IMG/VR virus record: IMGVR_UViG_3300037069_003784
Coordinates: 1-20,203 of that record
Source: a virus
DNA: 20,203 nt
Direction: 5' to 3' (one strand)
The notes beneath the pieces are model-generated. The model made no database searches and had not been told where the DNA came from. It worked only from the letters and a program-made list of their open reading frames with translations. Positions 5,471-18,280 of the stretch are shown piece by piece (the stretch's first letter is position 1; each line of letters starts with the position of its first letter). The translations under genes were made by a program, and so were the position numbers.

Positions 5471-5503
5471 CTCTCAACCCTCAACTCTCAACTCTCAACT
5501 TTC
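5471..5503 (+). repeat. (CTCAACT)n heptad array 1
   Basis: GCGGCTCTCAACC followed by three further CTCAACT-type heptads, ending 8 nt before GTG 5511. It fills the place where a ribosome binding site would be expected. Confidence 0.9.
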
Positions 5504-7140: not shown

Positions 7141-8052
7141 ATGATCACGATTCTCGATATCAAAAAGCGCGAGCAGAGCCTCGCCTATGACCTCGTTGAG
7201 GAAAACGTCAAGCTCAACCCCGAGTTCCTGCAAATCCCCGCCGACACCATCGCCGGCACGGATATGCGCCTCACTGTCCGCACCGATCTTCCTTCCGTCC
7301 TCTTCAGTAACCTCAACGAGGGCGTCCTCGAGAGCGACGACAAGACCATCACCCGTCTTTTCCAGACCGCTTTCCTCGACCAGCTTTGCACCGTCGACGT
7401 CCGCCTCCTCGCCGCCGGCGGTCCCGCCGCGGCCAAGGTGCTCACCGAACGGCAAGCCGGCTACGTCGAAGCGGCTATCCGCACTTCGTGCAAGCAGTTC
7501 TGGTATGGCACGCAGAACGATTCCAAGGGCTTCGTCGGTATGATCGCCCAGATGATCAACGACGGTGAACACGTCATCGACGCGGGCGGCACCACCGCCG
7601 GGGAAAAGAGTTCCATCTTCATGGTCGCCCGTGGCCGCGGCAAGTGCGAGTGGCTCCTCGGCAATGCGCGCACCCTCACCTTTCAGGACTGGATGCGCCA
7701 GACGATCACCCGCAACTTGGGCAACCAGTCCGCCAGCATGGATGCCATGACGTCGTGGATGCACTTCAATCCGGGCTGCCGTCTCGGCAACCGCAACGCC
7801 CTCCTGCGCATCAAGAATCTCACCACGCAGGTCGGCAATACGGCAAACTACGACCTACTCACCCAGGCCTATCAGCAGATGACCGACGACCTAGGCATGG
7901 TGCCCGACGCCCTCTTCATGACCGCCCGTTCGCAGCGTCAGTTGCGCGATTCGGTCAAGACCGACCTCAATCCGAATCCGCCCCTCCCGACGGAGTGGAA
8001 CAACATCCCGTTCTACATCTCGAGTAACATCGCCACCGGCGAAACCATCTAG
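7141..8052 (+). CDS. Major capsid protein, HK97-fold (probable)
   Basis: This 303-residue protein follows the protease and scaffold slot and has the make-up of an HK97-type capsid subunit. An N-terminal region sets up an extended arm and E-loop-like part (residues 1-60). A helix-rich segment follows near 65-125 (FLDQLCTVDV, AAIRTSCKQFWYGTQ), then the recurring phage-capsid phrase NDSKGFVGMIAQ, a spine-like QAYQQMTDDLGMVPDALFMT, and a closing beta segment NIPFYISSNI. A similar GF.G...M / P..l.....  layout is common in capsid proteins of about 300 residues. The MITILDI start is in frame with no SD sequence. It should be the most abundant virion protein. No protease cleavage site could be defined. 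Confidence 0.85.
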   Translation: MITILDIKKREQSLAYDLVEENVKLNPEFLQIPADTIAGTDMRLTVRTDLPSVLFSNLNEGVLESDDKTITRLFQTAFLDQLCTVDVRLLAAGGPAAAKVLTERQAGYVEAAIRTSCKQFWYGTQNDSKGFVGMIAQMINDGEHVIDAGGTTAGEKSSIFMVARGRGKCEWLLGNARTLTFQDWMRQTITRNLGNQSASMDAMTSWMHFNPGCRLGNRNALLRIKNLTTQVGNTANYDLLTQAYQQMTDDLGMVPDALFMTARSQRQLRDSVKTDLNPNPPLPTEWNNIPFYISSNIATGETI

Positions 8053-8112
8053 TTAGCGCTACGCCCGTCCGACTCGGACCTATCAACTCTCAACCCTCAA
8101 CTCTCAACTAAT
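8051..8112 (+). repeat. 62-bp duplicated leader element, copy A
   Basis: Matches 10028-10089 at 60 of 62 positions. It starts AGTTAGCGCT, contains a GTCCG-ACT-CGGAC hairpin at about 8068-8080, and ends in heptads TCAACTC (array 2, about 8082-8109). It begins within the capsid gene's stop and ends 10 nt before ATG 8122. Confidence 0.9.
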
Positions 8113-8929: not shown

Positions 8930-9093
8930 GCGATACGCCTCCAATACCTCCTATTCGTCCCATTATTCCTATTGATCGCATCGAAAGCCACGGTGGCATC
9001 GACATAGCGGAGTTGGACGAAATCATCGAGCGGCAACGCCAACAGGCCCGTCGGCTCTCAACTCTCAACCCTCAACCCTCAACTTCCCGATGA
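8926..9093 (+). CDS. Small Pro/Ile-rich protein with repeat-encoded C-terminus
   Basis: A 55-residue reading frame starts at an ATGA overlap with the preceding gene and stops in an ATGA overlap with the next one, which favours a translated gene. The N-terminus is PPIPPIRPIIPIDRI and a helix IAELDEIIERQRQQARR follows. The last dozen residues (LSTLNPQPSTSR) are encoded by the heptad array at 9055-9086, so the repeat has become coding sequence. Function unknown; a small neck or tail-assembly factor is possible from position. Confidence 0.55.
   Translation: MSDTPPIPPIRPIIPIDRIESHGGIDIAELDEIIERQRQQARRLSTLNPQPSTSR
9055..9086 (+). repeat. (CTCAACT)n heptad array 3, coding
   Basis: Four heptads (CTCAACT, CTCAACC, CTCAACC, CTCAACT) preceded by CGGCT, ending 4 nt before ATG 9090. 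It doubles as the 3' coding end of the 55-residue gene. Confidence 0.88.
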
Positions 9094-10027: not shown

Positions 10028-10089
10028 AGTTAGCGCTCCGCCCGTCCGGCTCGGACCTATCAACTCTCAACCCTCAACTCTCAACTAAT
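10028..10089 (+). repeat. 62-bp duplicated leader element, copy B
   Basis: Differs from 8051-8112 at two positions, one of them in the loop of the GTCCG-nCT-CGGAC hairpin. Its heptads (array 5, about 10059-10086) end 9 nt before ATG 10095. Confidence 0.9.
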
Positions 10090-10471: not shown

Positions 10472-10503
10472 ACTCTCAACTCTCAACTATAAACTTTCAA
10501 CTA
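10472..10503 (+). repeat. (CTCAACT)n heptad array 6
   Basis: ACTCTCAACTCTCAACTATA continues with AACTTTCAACT and ends 6 nt before ATG 10509. The 7-nt phase is kept although individual letters vary. Confidence 0.85.
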
Positions 10504-10508
10504 ATCCG

Positions 10509-10988
10509 ATGAAAGGCGGCGAAGCCCTCACCACCGTCTCAGCCGTCAATCCGGCGAATATCGTCGCGCCCGACCTCTTCCTCGCGCTCGCCCTCCTCAC
10601 CATCGGCATCGCCCGCGACCCACACGCCAATGGCGGCGACGTCGTCGAGTTCGTCGAGGAAGTCCGCGGCCAGAAAACCCGCAACTTCGTCTTCGTCTTC
10701 GACCCGAAAGGCACCGACGGCGTCGACACCGCCACGTGGATCAAGCGTTGGTCCGACGAGGACTGGCTCACGGCCAACAAATCGCACCCCTTCGCCGGCT
10801 TCAAGGCTATGGCTGCCACCTACGGCAACTTCGCCGTCTGGATGAAAGAGCACGACCCCGTCCTCGTCTTCCGTAACTCCCTCGGTGGCAACCTCGACTC
10901 CGGTCGCCGCGAACGCGTCGCCTACGTCCCCTCGCGCCTCATGGGCACCGACCAGGGCCGCCGCATCCTCCAGGGCGCCGGTCTATGA
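10509..10988 (+). CDS. Conserved-looking tail-module protein, unknown function
   Basis: This 159-residue protein has a Pro-containing start (NPANIVAPDLFLALALLTIG) and a strand pair NFVFVFDPKGTDG. A helical, Trp-bearing region follows (WIKRWSDEDW; FAVWMKEHDP), and the C-terminus is basic (GRRERVAYVPSRLMGTDQGR). It has no recognisable motif. It sits between the tube candidate and the chaperones and has the same codon preference as the structural genes, so it is probably a genuine virion or assembly protein. It shares an ATGA junction with the next, compositionally different gene. Confidence 0.5.
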   Translation: MKGGEALTTVSAVNPANIVAPDLFLALALLTIGIARDPHANGGDVVEFVEEVRGQKTRNFVFVFDPKGTDGVDTATWIKRWSDEDWLTANKSHPFAGFKAMAATYGNFAVWMKEHDPVLVFRNSLGGNLDSGRRERVAYVPSRLMGTDQGRRILQGAGL

Positions 10989-11272
10989 TGCTCATGAAGT
11001 CCAACCTCTATTTCGGCGTTCCACCGGCGCCGAAGATGCCTGTCATTCCCGGCTTCTCCATCGTTGCCTGTCACGATGATTGGCTTTTTGCCCGACAGGG
11101 AAAAAAGCTCTTCTACGTCGAGATTATAGATCGTACGACACAGGTATTTTCTCGCGGCGTGGATGGTCTCGTGAATGGCGTCAAACATCACATCCGCCGT
11201 TCTTATCGCCTCTTTCCTCGCGATCCGGACGGCGCCATTCGCACCGACAAGGCCATCACGATTCCAGTGTGA
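10985..11272 (+). CDS. Small atypical-composition gene (possible moron)
   Basis: This 95-residue protein has short hydrophobic strands (NLYFGVPPAPKMPVIPGFS; WLFARQGKKLFYVEII) and a basic C-terminal half (HHIRRSYRLFPRDPDG). Base use has fewer C/G third positions than its neighbours, with T- and A-ending codons such as ATT ATA GAT CGT, suggesting later acquisition. Its start overlaps the previous stop (ATGATG; 10985 or 10988). Unlike the two other candidate morons it has no octamer array behind it. Function unknown. Confidence 0.6.
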   Translation: MMLMKSNLYFGVPPAPKMPVIPGFSIVACHDDWLFARQGKKLFYVEIIDRTTQVFSRGVDGLVNGVKHHIRRSYRLFPRDPDGAIRTDKAITIPV

Positions 11273-11293
11273 TGTTCTGAGCAGCTTGTGCGG

Positions 11294-11324
11294 CTCTCAA
11301 CTCTCAACTAGCAACTCTCAACTT
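11294..11324 (+). repeat. (CTCAACT)n heptad array 7
   Basis: GCGGCTCTCAACTCTCAACT, then AGCAACTCTCAACTTC, ending 5 nt before ATG 11329. Confidence 0.88.
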
Positions 11325-11328
11325 CCTC

Positions 11329-11802
11329 ATGGACCCTCTCACCGACAGCCAGCGCGAAGCCCTCCGCACCGAGGCCATGCTCCACCCGGCGCCCGACCTT
11401 CCCTCGCTCAAGACGCGCCCCTTCAACGACACCGTCCTTGCTCTCTGCAAAGAAGCTGGCTTGACCCTCTTCACCCTCGAGGCCTTCGACGGCGACGTCA
11501 CCGGCAAGGAAGACATGGTCGCCCGCGCCAGCGCCCTCGGTGTTGCCGAGCTCAACCGGCAATGCCTCTGCCTCCTCTTCATCGTCGGCTGTCCTGACGT
11601 CAAGGGCATGCTCAAAGCCGTCCGCAGTCCCAGCTTCTACGACCAGGTGATCGAGTGGTCGCTCGACCTGCCCAGCGATCCCGACCGCATGGCCAACATC
11701 TTCGGCGAATGGCAGCGCTACATGCTCCACACCGCCGCCTCGCTGGTCAAGGTGCTCCCCAAGGATAACGACACCGGCCCGACACCGCCCCCAAACTCCT
11801 AG
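11329..11802 (+). CDS. Tail assembly chaperone, short form (gpG analogue)
   Basis: This 157-residue acidic, mostly helical protein lies two genes before the tape measure, where lambda encodes G and G-T. Such chaperones coat the tape measure and recruit tube subunits. No family motif was recognised, but the gene ends at CCG CCC CCA AAC TCC TAG, with a slippery CCCAAAC in the correct phase (C CCA AAC). The -1 frame beyond it stays open for 77 codons. The protein's last residues (DTGPTPPPNS) form a Pro-rich linker, as expected where a fusion begins. The short form is normally the more abundant product. Confidence 0.8.
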   Translation: MDPLTDSQREALRTEAMLHPAPDLPSLKTRPFNDTVLALCKEAGLTLFTLEAFDGDVTGKEDMVARASALGVAELNRQCLCLLFIVGCPDVKGMLKAVRSPSFYDQVIEWSLDLPSDPDRMANIFGEWQRYMLHTAASLVKVLPKDNDTGPTPPPNS

Positions 11803-11833
11803 CGCCGGGCGCGCTGGCCTCGCGCGTCCCGGC
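11790..11833 (+). promoter_or_regulatory. Programmed -1 ribosomal frameshift signal
   Basis: The canonical X XXY YYZ heptamer C CCA AAC is at 11790-11796 in the zero frame. After a 7-nt spacer, GCCGGGCGCGC (11804-11814) pairs with GCGCG plus CCCGGC (11822-11826, 11828-11833). This 11-bp GC stem has one bulged T and a 7-nt loop. Heptamer, spacer length and stem strength all fit known -1 frameshift sites. Confidence 0.85.
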
Positions 11834-12029
11834 CCTCTGCGAAAAGCTCAACATGACCCGGGACGAAGTCCTGTTCGAGCTCTACGGCCCTCAGGCCCTC
11901 CAATACACCCACGTCATGCTCTACGCCGCCGACGAGTGGACCGTCCCCCTCGACCGCAGCGTGAAAGAACAAGCCCGCTCCCTCCTCTCCGAGAGTAACG
12001 GCGATTCTGACACCCTGCTTTCGCTGTAG
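11796..12029 (+). CDS. Tail assembly chaperone extension (T part of G-T), -1 frame
   Basis: The -1 frame is open from the slippery site to TAG 12027 and gives 77 residues. The fusion with the gene at 11329 would be about 233 residues. The extension runs LLAPGALASRVPALCEKLNM, then a charged helical part (RDEVLFELYGPQALQYTH) and an acidic end (SESNGDSDTLLSL). Internal ATG 11853 could start a 58-residue product, but it has no SD sequence or repeat leader, so frameshifting is preferred. In lambda the T domain binds the tube protein while G binds the tape measure. Stretches of coding character in this gap are otherwise unexplained. Confidence 0.8.
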   Translation, partial: LLAPGALASRVPALCEKLNMTRDEVLFELYGPQALQYTHVMLYAADEWTVPLDRSVKEQARSLLSESNGDSDTLLSL

Positions 12030-12038
12030 GGAAATCGG

Positions 12039-12071
12039 CTCTCAACTATCCACTCTCAACTATCAACTTTT
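12039..12071 (+). repeat. (CTCAACT)n heptad array 8
   Basis: CGGCTCTCAACTATCCACTC, then TCAACTATCAACTTT, ending 7 nt before ATG 12078 after a short pyrimidine run. Confidence 0.85.
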
Positions 12072-12077
12072 TCCCCC

Positions 12078-12647
12078 ATGCGCTGCACCATCCGCCTCGA
12101 CACCTCCGGCATCCGCGCCGGCCTGCAAAAAAAGCGCGAGGCCGCGATCGTCGTCTTGAAATCCGAGATGGAACGCATCGCCGAACAGGCCCTCAACAAG
12201 CGCTACTGGGATTTGCAAAACGCCGGCCCGCAGGACAGCGGCCAAATCCACGGCCGCCTCAACAAGCTCAACAGCCTCTTCGTCCCCGTCGCCCTGCAGC
12301 ACAAGCGCCGCGAACGCTGGCCCGACATCGCCGCCATTTACGACGCCATGGTCCGGCGCCATCAGCAGAGCTACATGGGCACCCGCAAGTTTTGGGTCGA
12401 CGAAATCAAACTCGACGACTTCCGCACCCGCATCCTCCAGCGCTTGATGCGCAACGGCCTCGCCCGCGGCACCTGGACCATCGTCATCCAGACCGACCGC
12501 AACCACTACGTCACCGTCACCGTCCAGAAAGTCGGCCGCGCCACTGCCATGGACAAAAAAGCCGGCCAGCAACTCGCCGTCATGATGCAACAAATGTTCG
12601 CCGAACGCCAAAGCACCATCCTCTACCAGATCCTAAACACCCACTGA
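12078..12647 (+). CDS. Basic tail-region protein, unknown function
   Basis: This 189-residue basic protein (many Lys/Arg) starts with a strand MRCTIRLDTSGIRAG. It continues with helices (KSEMERIAEQALNKRYWDLQ), a linker with DSGQIHGRLNKLNSLF, and a helix-strand part (FRTRILQRLMRNGLARGTWT then VIQTDRNHYVTVTVQ). The last helix is AGQQLAVMMQQMFAERQ. Nothing diagnostic was recognised. Position between chaperones and tape measure suggests a tail-assembly role, yet most siphophages have no gene there. Codon use is the same as the neighbouring structural genes, so it is not a recent insertion. Confidence 0.5.
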   Translation: MRCTIRLDTSGIRAGLQKKREAAIVVLKSEMERIAEQALNKRYWDLQNAGPQDSGQIHGRLNKLNSLFVPVALQHKRRERWPDIAAIYDAMVRRHQQSYMGTRKFWVDEIKLDDFRTRILQRLMRNGLARGTWTIVIQTDRNHYVTVTVQKVGRATAMDKKAGQQLAVMMQQMFAERQSTILYQILNTH

Positions 12648-12658
12648 ACCAAGCAGCT

Positions 12659-12880
12659 ATGACGATCACGCGTTCCGATATTCCGCAGATCCGGCTTTGC
12701 TATAGGATCGCGAAGACAGCATGGCGACTTAATCTCGCAGAGGCCTCCTTTTGGCGAATCGCAGGTAACTTAGAAATGGCTCGTGAATCCCGGCGGTGCG
12801 CAACGAATGCGCGCCGACGCTGGCGAAAAATGGCTATAGCTCGAAAGGCGCTTTGGAAGGCTGAAACAGCTAACGTCTAA
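12659..12880 (+). CDS. Small basic moron-like gene
   Basis: This 73-residue, very basic and Trp/Ala-rich protein (MTITRSDIPQIRLCYRIAKT; RRCATNARRRWRKMAIARKA) is encoded 11 nt after the previous stop, directly before the tape measure. Its codons (ATA, CGA, TTA, GGT) differ from the C-rich preference of its neighbours. It is followed at once by the octamer array at 12888-12917. The helical, positively charged make-up is compatible with nucleic-acid binding, but no domain was recognised. Gene status rests on the unbroken frame and composition shift; a non-coding insert is possible. Confidence 0.5.
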   Translation: MTITRSDIPQIRLCYRIAKTAWRLNLAEASFWRIAGNLEMARESRRCATNARRRWRKMAIARKALWKAETANV

Positions 12881-12887
12881 TATGCTC

Positions 12888-12917
12888 CTCTGCGTCTCTG
12901 CGTCTCTGCGTTTTAAA
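12888..12917 (+). repeat. (CTCTGCGT)3-TTTTAAA octamer array A
   Basis: Three perfect copies of CTCTGCGT, then TTTAAA, lie between the small basic gene and the tape measure leader. The same structure recurs at 16303-16331. Confidence 0.92.
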
Positions 12918-12947: not shown

Positions 12948-14903
12948 ATGTCCGACGAAACGGCCGAGGGAAGTCTAGAGGTTGATATTCAGCAGTTCCT
13001 CGAGGCCCTCGACAGCCTCGAGGAACGGCTCGCCGACTTGCAGGCCGATTTTGAGAAAGCCGCCCCGGAAATCAGCGGTCAACTCGACACCGTCGAGGCC
13101 TCGGCGACCAAGGCTTCCCGGGCCATGGATTTCCTCCGGGCCACCGGTTCCCGGGTCAGTTCCATCTTCGCCCAGGCCGCCCCGCACATCCGCAACTTCG
13201 CTCATGTGCTCATCGAGGTTTCCCACTTCGCCGGCCTCATCCCGAGCAGCCTCGGCTTCGTTGGTACCGCCCTGGCCAGCCTGACCGGCAAAATCTCCCC
13301 GCTCGGCCCCAAGATGGTCGCCGCCGTCAACCAATGGCTCCCCGGCATCAAGCAAGGCCTGCGGATGATTTCCATTACCGACTTCGCCGTCCAGGCTTTG
13401 CAAGGCCGCCTTGGCATCCTCGGCGCCGCCTTCGGCTTCGTCGCCGGCCGCGCCCTCACCGGTCGCACCGCCATGTCCGCCTTCGGCGCGGCCACCGCCT
13501 ACGTCGTCTCCACCGCCGTCGCCGCCGGCCGCGCTCTCACCGGCCTCATCCGCGGCCTCACTGGCATGATCGTCAGCAGCCTCGGCTCCATCGGCACGGT
13601 GATCAACATGGCCCTCCCCGAGTTCCTCCCGCTCATCACTCTCGTCGGCCTCCTCGCCGCCGCCTTCGCCCTGCTCAAGAAAGCCGTCCACGAGGCCTCC
13701 GATATCGAGACGACCACCGAGGCCTATGCCGACCTCACGAACAACGCCGAACAAGCCAAGCAAGCCGTCGAGGAACTCATCAGCCTTTCCAATCATGGCC
13801 CGTTCGAAAAGGGCCAGCTTCTCGACGCGGGCAAGCAATTGCTCACCCTCAAATTCAGCGCGCAGGAACTCGTCCCGCTCCTCAAGGATGCCGGCGACGC
13901 CAGCGCCCGGATGAACAAGCCGCTCGGTGACATGGTCGGCATCTTCGGCAAGATCAAGGGCGGCCAGTTTGCCGACGCCTTCAAGGGCCTCCACGGCTTC
14001 GGCATCTCCCAAGCGGACCTCGAGGGAAGGGGCCTCACCTTCGACCGCAACCATCAGTTCAAGGGCAGCGCCGATCAGGCCATGACCGCCGTCCGCGCCG
14101 TCATCCAGGATAAATTCGGCGGCGCGGCCGACGCTCTCTCCCACACTTGGAGCCATCTTTGGAGCTCGCTCTCCACCATGGTCATCCAGAACTTCCGCGC
14201 CATCGGCGGCCCGGTTCTGGCGCAAATCAAGCCCATCCTCGAGCAGATTGTCGGCGCCTACGGCCAGACCCTCCCCATCGCCCAGCGCATCGGCAGCATC
14301 ATCGGTACGGGTATCGGTTACGTCCGCAGTTTCCTCGGTTACATCGTCGACGGCGCCCGTGCCATCGGCGCGCAACTCATGCCCATCCTGCAGCCCTTCA
14401 TCGGCCAGTTCCGGGCCATCGGCGGCGAGATGGCCGCGATCTTCCAGCAAATCGCCGGGCTGGCCGGCGGCGTCCTCGCCAAGGCCTTCCGCCTCCTCGC
14501 TCCCGTCATGGCCGGCGCCCTCATGCTCGGTCTCAATCTCCTCAAGCAAATGCTCGAGGTGGTCAACAAGATGCTCGCTGGCCTGCTAAGGGTGATCACC
14601 GAGCTCAACCGTTTCCTCGGCATAAAGCCGGTCGCTTTCCAGGGCATGCCTGGCGCCGAAGATCCGGCCCGCAAGCCGCGTCCCGATGCCGTGGCCGATG
14701 ACGCCACCGCCTCGCGTCCGGTCGTCGGCCGCATGCGCGAGCTCGCCGGCGGCGGCGTCTTCCACCTCAACGCCGGCGGCGGCGGCGTCGACCCGAACCT
14801 CGAGGAAAACCGCCGGCAAACCCGCCTCCTCGAGCAACTCGTGCGCAACACCTCCGGGAACGCCCCGCAGAAGGGTGGCCCTCCCATGCCTGTCAGCTTA
14901 TGA
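12948..14903 (+). CDS. Tape measure protein
   Basis: This 651-residue protein sets tail length and leaves the tube during infection. It is the longest tail gene before the distal module. An amphipathic N-terminal coiled coil covers about 12-65 (QQFLEALDSLEERLADLQAD). It is followed by Gly/Ala-rich hydrophobic stretches (about 85-115, 145-195, 225-245 with LVGLLAAAFALL) of the membrane-penetrating kind. A typical tape-measure core runs about 250-400 (TTTEAYADLTNNAEQAKQ, then DAGKQLLTLKFSAQE and LGDMVGIFGKIKGGQFADAF). At roughly 0.15 nm per residue the tail would be near 98 nm. The C-terminus is Gly/Pro rich. TGA overlaps the next ATG (ATGA). Confidence 0.92.
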   Translation: MSDETAEGSLEVDIQQFLEALDSLEERLADLQADFEKAAPEISGQLDTVEASATKASRAMDFLRATGSRVSSIFAQAAPHIRNFAHVLIEVSHFAGLIPSSLGFVGTALASLTGKISPLGPKMVAAVNQWLPGIKQGLRMISITDFAVQALQGRLGILGAAFGFVAGRALTGRTAMSAFGAATAYVVSTAVAAGRALTGLIRGLTGMIVSSLGSIGTVINMALPEFLPLITLVGLLAAAFALLKKAVHEASDIETTTEAYADLTNNAEQAKQAVEELISLSNHGPFEKGQLLDAGKQLLTLKFSAQELVPLLKDAGDASARMNKPLGDMVGIFGKIKGGQFADAFKGLHGFGISQADLEGRGLTFDRNHQFKGSADQAMTAVRAVIQDKFGGAADALSHTWSHLWSSLSTMVIQNFRAIGGPVLAQIKPILEQIVGAYGQTLPIAQRIGSIIGTGIGYVRSFLGYIVDGARAIGAQLMPILQPFIGQFRAIGGEMAAIFQQIAGLAGGVLAKAFRLLAPVMAGALMLGLNLLKQMLEVVNKMLAGLLRVITELNRFLGIKPVAFQGMPGAEDPARKPRPDAVADDATASRPVVGRMRELAGGGVFHLNAGGGGVDPNLEENRRQTRLLEQLVRNTSGNAPQKGGPPMPVSL

Positions 14904-16286: not shown

Positions 16287-16302
16287 CGCACTCCCGGAAA
16301 TC

Positions 16303-16331
16303 CTCTGCGTCTCTGCGCCTCTGCGTTTTAA
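16303..16331 (+). repeat. (CTCTGCGT)3-TTTTAAA octamer array B
   Basis: CTCTGCGT, CTCTGCGC, CTCTGCGT and then TTTAAAAA lie between the methyltransferase and the next tail gene, whose ATG is at 16335. This matches the array at 12888 in unit, copy number and A/T end. Confidence 0.92.
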
Positions 16332-16334
16332 AAA

Positions 16335-16934
16335 ATGAGCACGGAAGATATTCGCGCCAAGCTCAACGAGCCGTTCAATCCCGCCAAGCACAACGCCCTG
16401 GTTGACCTCGCTGCGCGCAACACCTGGTCCGGCGGCGCCAATGTCCGCATCAGCAAGGGGCCCCACGGTTCCACCGTCGCTTTCGATTCCGTCGACGGCA
16501 CCGCCAGCGCCCCCTTCTTCCGTGCCACCGTCAAGCGCGTCGGTGATCACTTCGAAATTCGTTTTGCTCAAGGCCGCATCGGCGGCGTTGAGCCGACCAT
16601 CGACGGCGTCGCCGTTTCCAAAAAAGGCAAGGACGGCAAGCAACCCGCGCTCATCGTCACGGATGCCGACTTCGACCCCGATACCGGCGTCGCCAACATC
16701 TATTTCCAATGCACGGTGCAACCGGAGACGTTCCAAATCATCAGCGTCACCCCCATCGCCGCGCCGGCCAAACCCGCCAAACAAAAGCTCATCGCCAACA
16801 AGCTCGCCGGCTTCCTGCTCCGCACCGGAAATTCCGTCCGCTACGATCGCCAGCTTTTCAGCAACGTCGGCTTCTACGCCGCCAACCGCGAGCCCAGCGG
16901 CTTCTTCGACCCGCTCTGGTCCTGGCAGCCATGA
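16335..16934 (+). CDS. Distal tail/baseplate protein, unknown family
   Basis: This 199-residue protein has an N-terminal helix (EDIRAKLNEPFNPAKHNALV) and a long beta region (NVRISKGPHGSTVAFDSVDG; HFEIRFAQGRIGGVEPTIDG). A Lys-rich linker PAKPAKQKLIANK follows, and the final segment is aromatic (FFDPLWSWQP). It has no recognisable domain. Position after a tape measure and before two large terminal genes fits a distal tail or baseplate component. It couples to the next gene by an ATGA overlap and uses the C-rich codons of the structural genes. Confidence 0.6.
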   Translation: MSTEDIRAKLNEPFNPAKHNALVDLAARNTWSGGANVRISKGPHGSTVAFDSVDGTASAPFFRATVKRVGDHFEIRFAQGRIGGVEPTIDGVAVSKKGKDGKQPALIVTDADFDPDTGVANIYFQCTVQPETFQIISVTPIAAPAKPAKQKLIANKLAGFLLRTGNSVRYDRQLFSNVGFYAANREPSGFFDPLWSWQP

Positions 16935-17989: not shown

Positions 17990-18014
17990 CTCTCAACTAT
18001 CAACTCTCAACTTT
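17990..18014 (+). repeat. (CTCAACT)n heptad array 9
   Basis: GCGGCTCTCAACTATCAACT then CTCAACTTT, followed 5 nt later by TTTGACAT. This and the site at 9583-9618 are the only gaps with both elements. Confidence 0.88.
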
Positions 18015-18247: not shown

Positions 18248-18280
18248 CTCTCAACTCTCAACTTTCAACTCTCAACTTTT
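18248..18280 (+). repeat. (CTCAACT)n heptad array 10
   Basis: GCGGCTCTCAACTCTCAACT then TTCAACTCTCAACTTTT, ending 8 nt before GTG 18288. Confidence 0.9.

Follow-up and report, generated by a model that had tools for sequence, protein, structure and literature searches.

A 20,203-base virus contig, analysed here over its whole length (the window), carries its genes in head-to-tail order: terminase, portal, major capsid protein (Pfam GP7) and then the tape measure gene (12948–14903, plus strand; best hit 9e-10 among PHROGs tape measure families). Upstream of that gene, an open reading frame on the same strand, G (11329–11802, 157 aa, with gene-like codon usage), ends in CCC CCA AAC TCC TAG, and its end is overlapped by a −1 frame that stays open from 11769 to a TAG at 12027–12029. 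Does this arrangement represent two neighbouring genes, or do some ribosomes change frame at the end of G to make a second, longer protein, as in the tail assembly chaperones of lambda?

We analysed the junction for the elements of a frameshift signal. The heptamer CCCAAAC (11790–11796) is in phase with G, being read as C CCA AAC, and is followed by a 7-nt spacer (11797–11803), which holds the zero-frame stop TAG (11800–11802), and by a GC-rich hairpin (11804–11833). RNA folding returned exactly the 11-bp stem that an earlier, sequence-only reading of this DNA had described (11804–11814 paired with 11822–11826 and 11828–11833, with a bulge at 11827 and a 7-nt loop; about −24 to −25 kcal/mol). 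The heptamer at the end of G and the 77 codons that remain open past the slip (T, 11796–12029, the C-terminal part of a predicted GT protein of 233 aa) were likewise as that reading had them. The hairpin is the candidate stimulator. Only 0.6–0.9% of same-size segments within 700–800 nt fold as stably; against dinucleotide shuffles it stands out modestly (z-score −1.3 to −2.3), which is to be expected of DNA with 62% GC. Nowhere else in the window, on either strand, does a long upstream frame have an in-phase heptamer close to its stop together with a long −1 frame. By chance, an in-phase heptamer would fall within the 10-codon overlap in 0.6% of cases (codon shuffles), and the CCA of the slip site is the sole CCA among the 14 proline codons of G. 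The junction thus has three features of the XXXYYYZ class: the in-phase heptamer, a downstream structure within 5–9 nt and, as described below, conservation across divergent homologues.

These features, together with the relatives considered below, very probably reflect a programmed −1 ribosomal frameshift that makes G and GT tail assembly chaperones in a lambda-like layout. We infer the slippage itself, and the binding partners of G and T, as follows. The majority of ribosomes would stop at the TAG at 11800, having read G, and release the 157-aa protein. A minority would stall at the hairpin 7 nt downstream of the heptamer, whereupon the tRNAs on CCA and AAC could re-pair with CCC and AAA, and the slipped ribosomes would read on in the −1 frame (PPN-LLAP...) to produce the 233-aa GT. 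The lambda system suggests by analogy that G would coat the tape measure protein, the presumed client of both products, and that the T domain of GT would recruit the tail tube subunit.

Window G as a single query gave no match in the phages, viral_contigs and genome_contigs collections or in 388 Verrucomicrobiota genomes, and homologues surfaced only via terminase relatives and alignment building. The terminase relatives gave Akkermansia-type phage contigs and one further contig, L033; a four-member profile (A5) detected copies, either split or fused, in genomes of Verrucomicrobiota, and larger alignments added copies from viral contigs and genomes (two alignments, A11 and A12, were dropped, with G and T fragments badly mixed in them). 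HMM searches place the G+T protein, including G parts homologous to that of the window, in other phages and in prophages of Verrucomicrobiota; the copies fall into ten clusters at 70% identity. Judging by these relatives, the host of the window phage is probably a member of the Verrucomicrobiota. The count leaves out a copy in genome G306 (L093/L149), in which no G is recognisable beside T, and four heptamer candidates of similar layout for which homology was not established. The latter, in phages found via their terminase, have a −1 frame of 53–130 codons at AAAAAAC or GGGAAAC directly before a stop, at about the position of the tail chaperones (L018:10282, L035:19536, L036:8668 and L063:8184). 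They are likely to represent additional frameshift pairs, from other families, that annotation has passed over.

Every paired split copy is split by −1, none by +1, and carries an XXXAAAN heptamer in phase where the two frames meet, so that the heptamer and the −1 frame, whose conservation the sequence-only reading had proposed as a check, are both intact in the split homologues. The automatic overlap rule failed to pick up four junctions (L092, L131, L144 and L166); those of L092 and L131, read by hand, have AAAAAAG. CCCAAAC, which the sequence-only reading had called less usual than the GGGAAAG of lambda, is not unusual in this group, as it recurs in three clusters besides that of the window (G186, G070 and L110–L116). 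AAAAAAC is found in the Akkermansia group and at two G150 loci, GGGAAAG in G126, and AAAAAAG in the L091/L126–L139 group. One member of this last, close-knit cluster, L139, has GGGAAAG with a small indel instead, so slipperiness was retained there despite the altered letters. The type represented by L150, L151 and L169, with AAAAAAA 23 codons before the stop, is a less certain member. The heptamer block is otherwise constant in its letters inside clusters, while flanking synonymous sites vary.

The runs of six A residues in AAAAAAC and AAAAAAG are sequences on which a polymerase could slip, and would suit an origin of the fusion in transcriptional rather than ribosomal slippage. However, CCCAAAC, in the window and in three other clusters, and GGGAAAG have A runs of no more than three, and strong hairpins stand at the spacing expected for ribosomes, which makes transcriptional slippage extremely improbable. 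In most relatives the hairpin starts 6–9 nt downstream of the heptamer, and fewer than 2% of neighbouring segments fold as well as the best of these hairpins; the junctions of L091 and L096 have ordinary folding energies, so the hairpin is not consistently extreme.

As evidence that T is a coding sequence, the openness of its frame is weak, because 40% of the off-frames inside the genes of this phage also stay open for 77 codons. Past the slip site, the coding signal in codon usage and GC3 passes to the −1 frame (a codon-usage score of 0.316 per codon and a GC3 of 0.84), and only 0.9% of off-frame segments score higher than T. In the relatives T is under purifying selection in the −1 frame, as judged from sequence comparison: pairwise dN/dS was ~0.15–0.16 for L047 against L002 and L047 against L104, and ~0.33–0.35 for the pairs L091/L092 and L106/L090. 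Two other pairs were uninformative, L107/L105 being saturated and L002/L104 having too few changes.

T could also be a small independent gene initiated at the in-frame ATG at 11853, and the GenBank record of the Akkermansia phage Moulinsart (ON453896.1) lists homologous G and T parts (10632–11090 and 11120–11332) as two unlinked hypothetical proteins. The alignment of T, however, starts right after the slip site, 18–19 codons upstream of 11853, the first start codon in the window, and in L090 the first ATG, GTG or TTG comes 40 codons into T. Independent initiation therefore cannot yield the conserved T domain, and the start at 11853, which the sequence-only reading had named as a possible refutation, does not serve as one. 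Two separate genes would also have no need of an in-phase heptamer, which is universal in the split copies, and 11853 is not preceded by the CTCAACT array that stands before many genes of this phage. We consider separate genes very improbable. The Moulinsart junction itself resembles that of the window, with a heptamer followed by TAG and a hairpin spacing of about 6 nt, and differs in having AAAAAAC as the heptamer.

Further evidence that G and T form one protein comes from copies in which they share a frame. L033:9596–10273 is a single uninterrupted ORF of 225 aa, whose C-terminal half is homologous to T. In a BLASTP comparison with the conceptual GT of the window, the alignment spans the slip junction (window VKVLPKDNDTGPTP-PPN|LLAP... 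against VKERPRKSSLEDDPEPPEVVEP... in L033; E = 2e-7 for that comparison). A second one-frame fusion is found in G236 (L087, reverse strand, 1498–2136). Neither fused gene has an in-phase heptamer near the junction at which slippage could give a short G, and a short G is therefore not obvious in those phages. We tentatively suggest, at somewhat less than an even chance, that the copies form a new chaperone family of Verrucomicrobiota phages and prophages in which the L033 and G236 lineages dropped the frameshift and make only full-length GT.

We compared the surroundings of the pair and its fold with those of known tail chaperones. The hallmark of a tail chaperone locus is a −1 frameshift placed immediately before the tape measure gene. 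The tape measure gene adjoins T directly in L088, L089, L110, L126 and L150; among those scanned, L088, L110, L126 and L150 match PHROGs tape measure families, and L088, L126 and L150 are above the cut-off for Pfam TMP_3. In the window, one gene with no function assigned (12078–12647, plus strand, 189 aa) lies between T and the tape measure gene, and genes of ~225 and ~275 aa take the same place in L033 and L096. On the other side, a plus-strand gene upstream of G (10509–10988) resembles, by eye, proteins that precede G in L089, L092 and L087. Searches of 12 family members against Pfam, PHROGs and NCBIfam gave no family match beyond stray ones to single members, and the G and T proteins had no match among PDB sequences. 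Known tail chaperones of different phages often share little sequence similarity (PMC5009743). AlphaFold gave a poor model for window G (pLDDT 58) and a fair one for the G of a relative (pLDDT 76), in which a beta-hairpin is followed by helices. Fold searches against the PDB and a viral library returned nothing significant, and several of the weak, non-significant hits from the viral library carry the name of tail assembly chaperone, including GT of phage N15.

The lack of a sequence or significant fold match, and the extra gene that parts T from the tape measure gene in the window, could mean that the frameshift is real and serves another role in tail or head assembly. Given that T adjoins the tape measure gene in five relatives, that the layout is the hallmark one, and that named chaperones appear among the weak structural matches, we regard such a role as unlikely. 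On layout and mechanism, and not on membership in a sequence family, the pair is likely to be tail assembly chaperones. The lambda-type G/GT assignment of the sequence-only reading thus holds for the frameshift, the layout and the tape measure neighbour, and does not extend to a match with a known chaperone family.

The mechanism is a known, textbook one. In lambda, gpG binds the tape measure and the T domain the tube protein, at a G to GT ratio of about 30:1 (PMC5009743). The window shares with lambda G/GT a short zero-frame protein and a rare −1 fusion, here predicted, at an XXXYYYZ site near the end of the first frame, upstream of the tape measure gene. It differs in its heptamer (CCCAAAC instead of GGGAAAG), in a T part of 77 aa, in the extra gene between T and the tape measure gene and in having no sequence match to any known chaperone family. 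A tail chaperone pair joined by recoding is also found in the HK97-like cluster, where frameshifting of two fs-genes was measured at 6% and 7% (PMC3711429); that cluster belongs, as far as tested, to another sequence family. In the open literature searched, we found no phage case of CCCAAAC frameshifting.

The window also contains repeats. Tandem CTCAACT-type repeats occur at nine places (5474–5500, 8090–8109, 9072–9084, 10067–10086, 10473–10488, 11294–11323, 12049–12068, 17990–18012 and 18248–18277), always on the coding strand and ending 5–20 nt upstream of possible start codons; no obvious Shine–Dalgarno sequence was seen by eye at the gene starts behind them. Two of the copies (8051–8112 and 10028–10089) are 97% identical over 62 nt. 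A search of 388 Verrucomicrobiota genomes found the motif in 14; some, such as G100, have dispersed copies, and others have it in long arrays. The arrays may serve as a signal for translation, or may be mobile repeats of intergenic DNA. Another repeat, CTCTGCGTCTCTGCG...TTTTAAA, is found at 12878–12917, ahead of the start of the tape measure gene (12948), and at 16301–16332, just before an ATG at 16335.

The new elements here are the family, with its occurrence across Verrucomicrobiota phages and prophages, the reassignment of the Moulinsart proteins and the two natural fusions that lack the frameshift. Phages of a little-studied phylum thereby gain a recoded gene family that the curated libraries searched do not contain, and the annotation of a cultured Akkermansia phage is put right. 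The heptamers also form a natural series in which X varies (CCC, AAA and GGG) and AAA is constant. The two members without a frameshift make the need for a ratio of short to long chaperone directly testable: if these lineages do make only full-length GT, the G:GT ratio held essential in lambda would be dispensable in them, or met otherwise.
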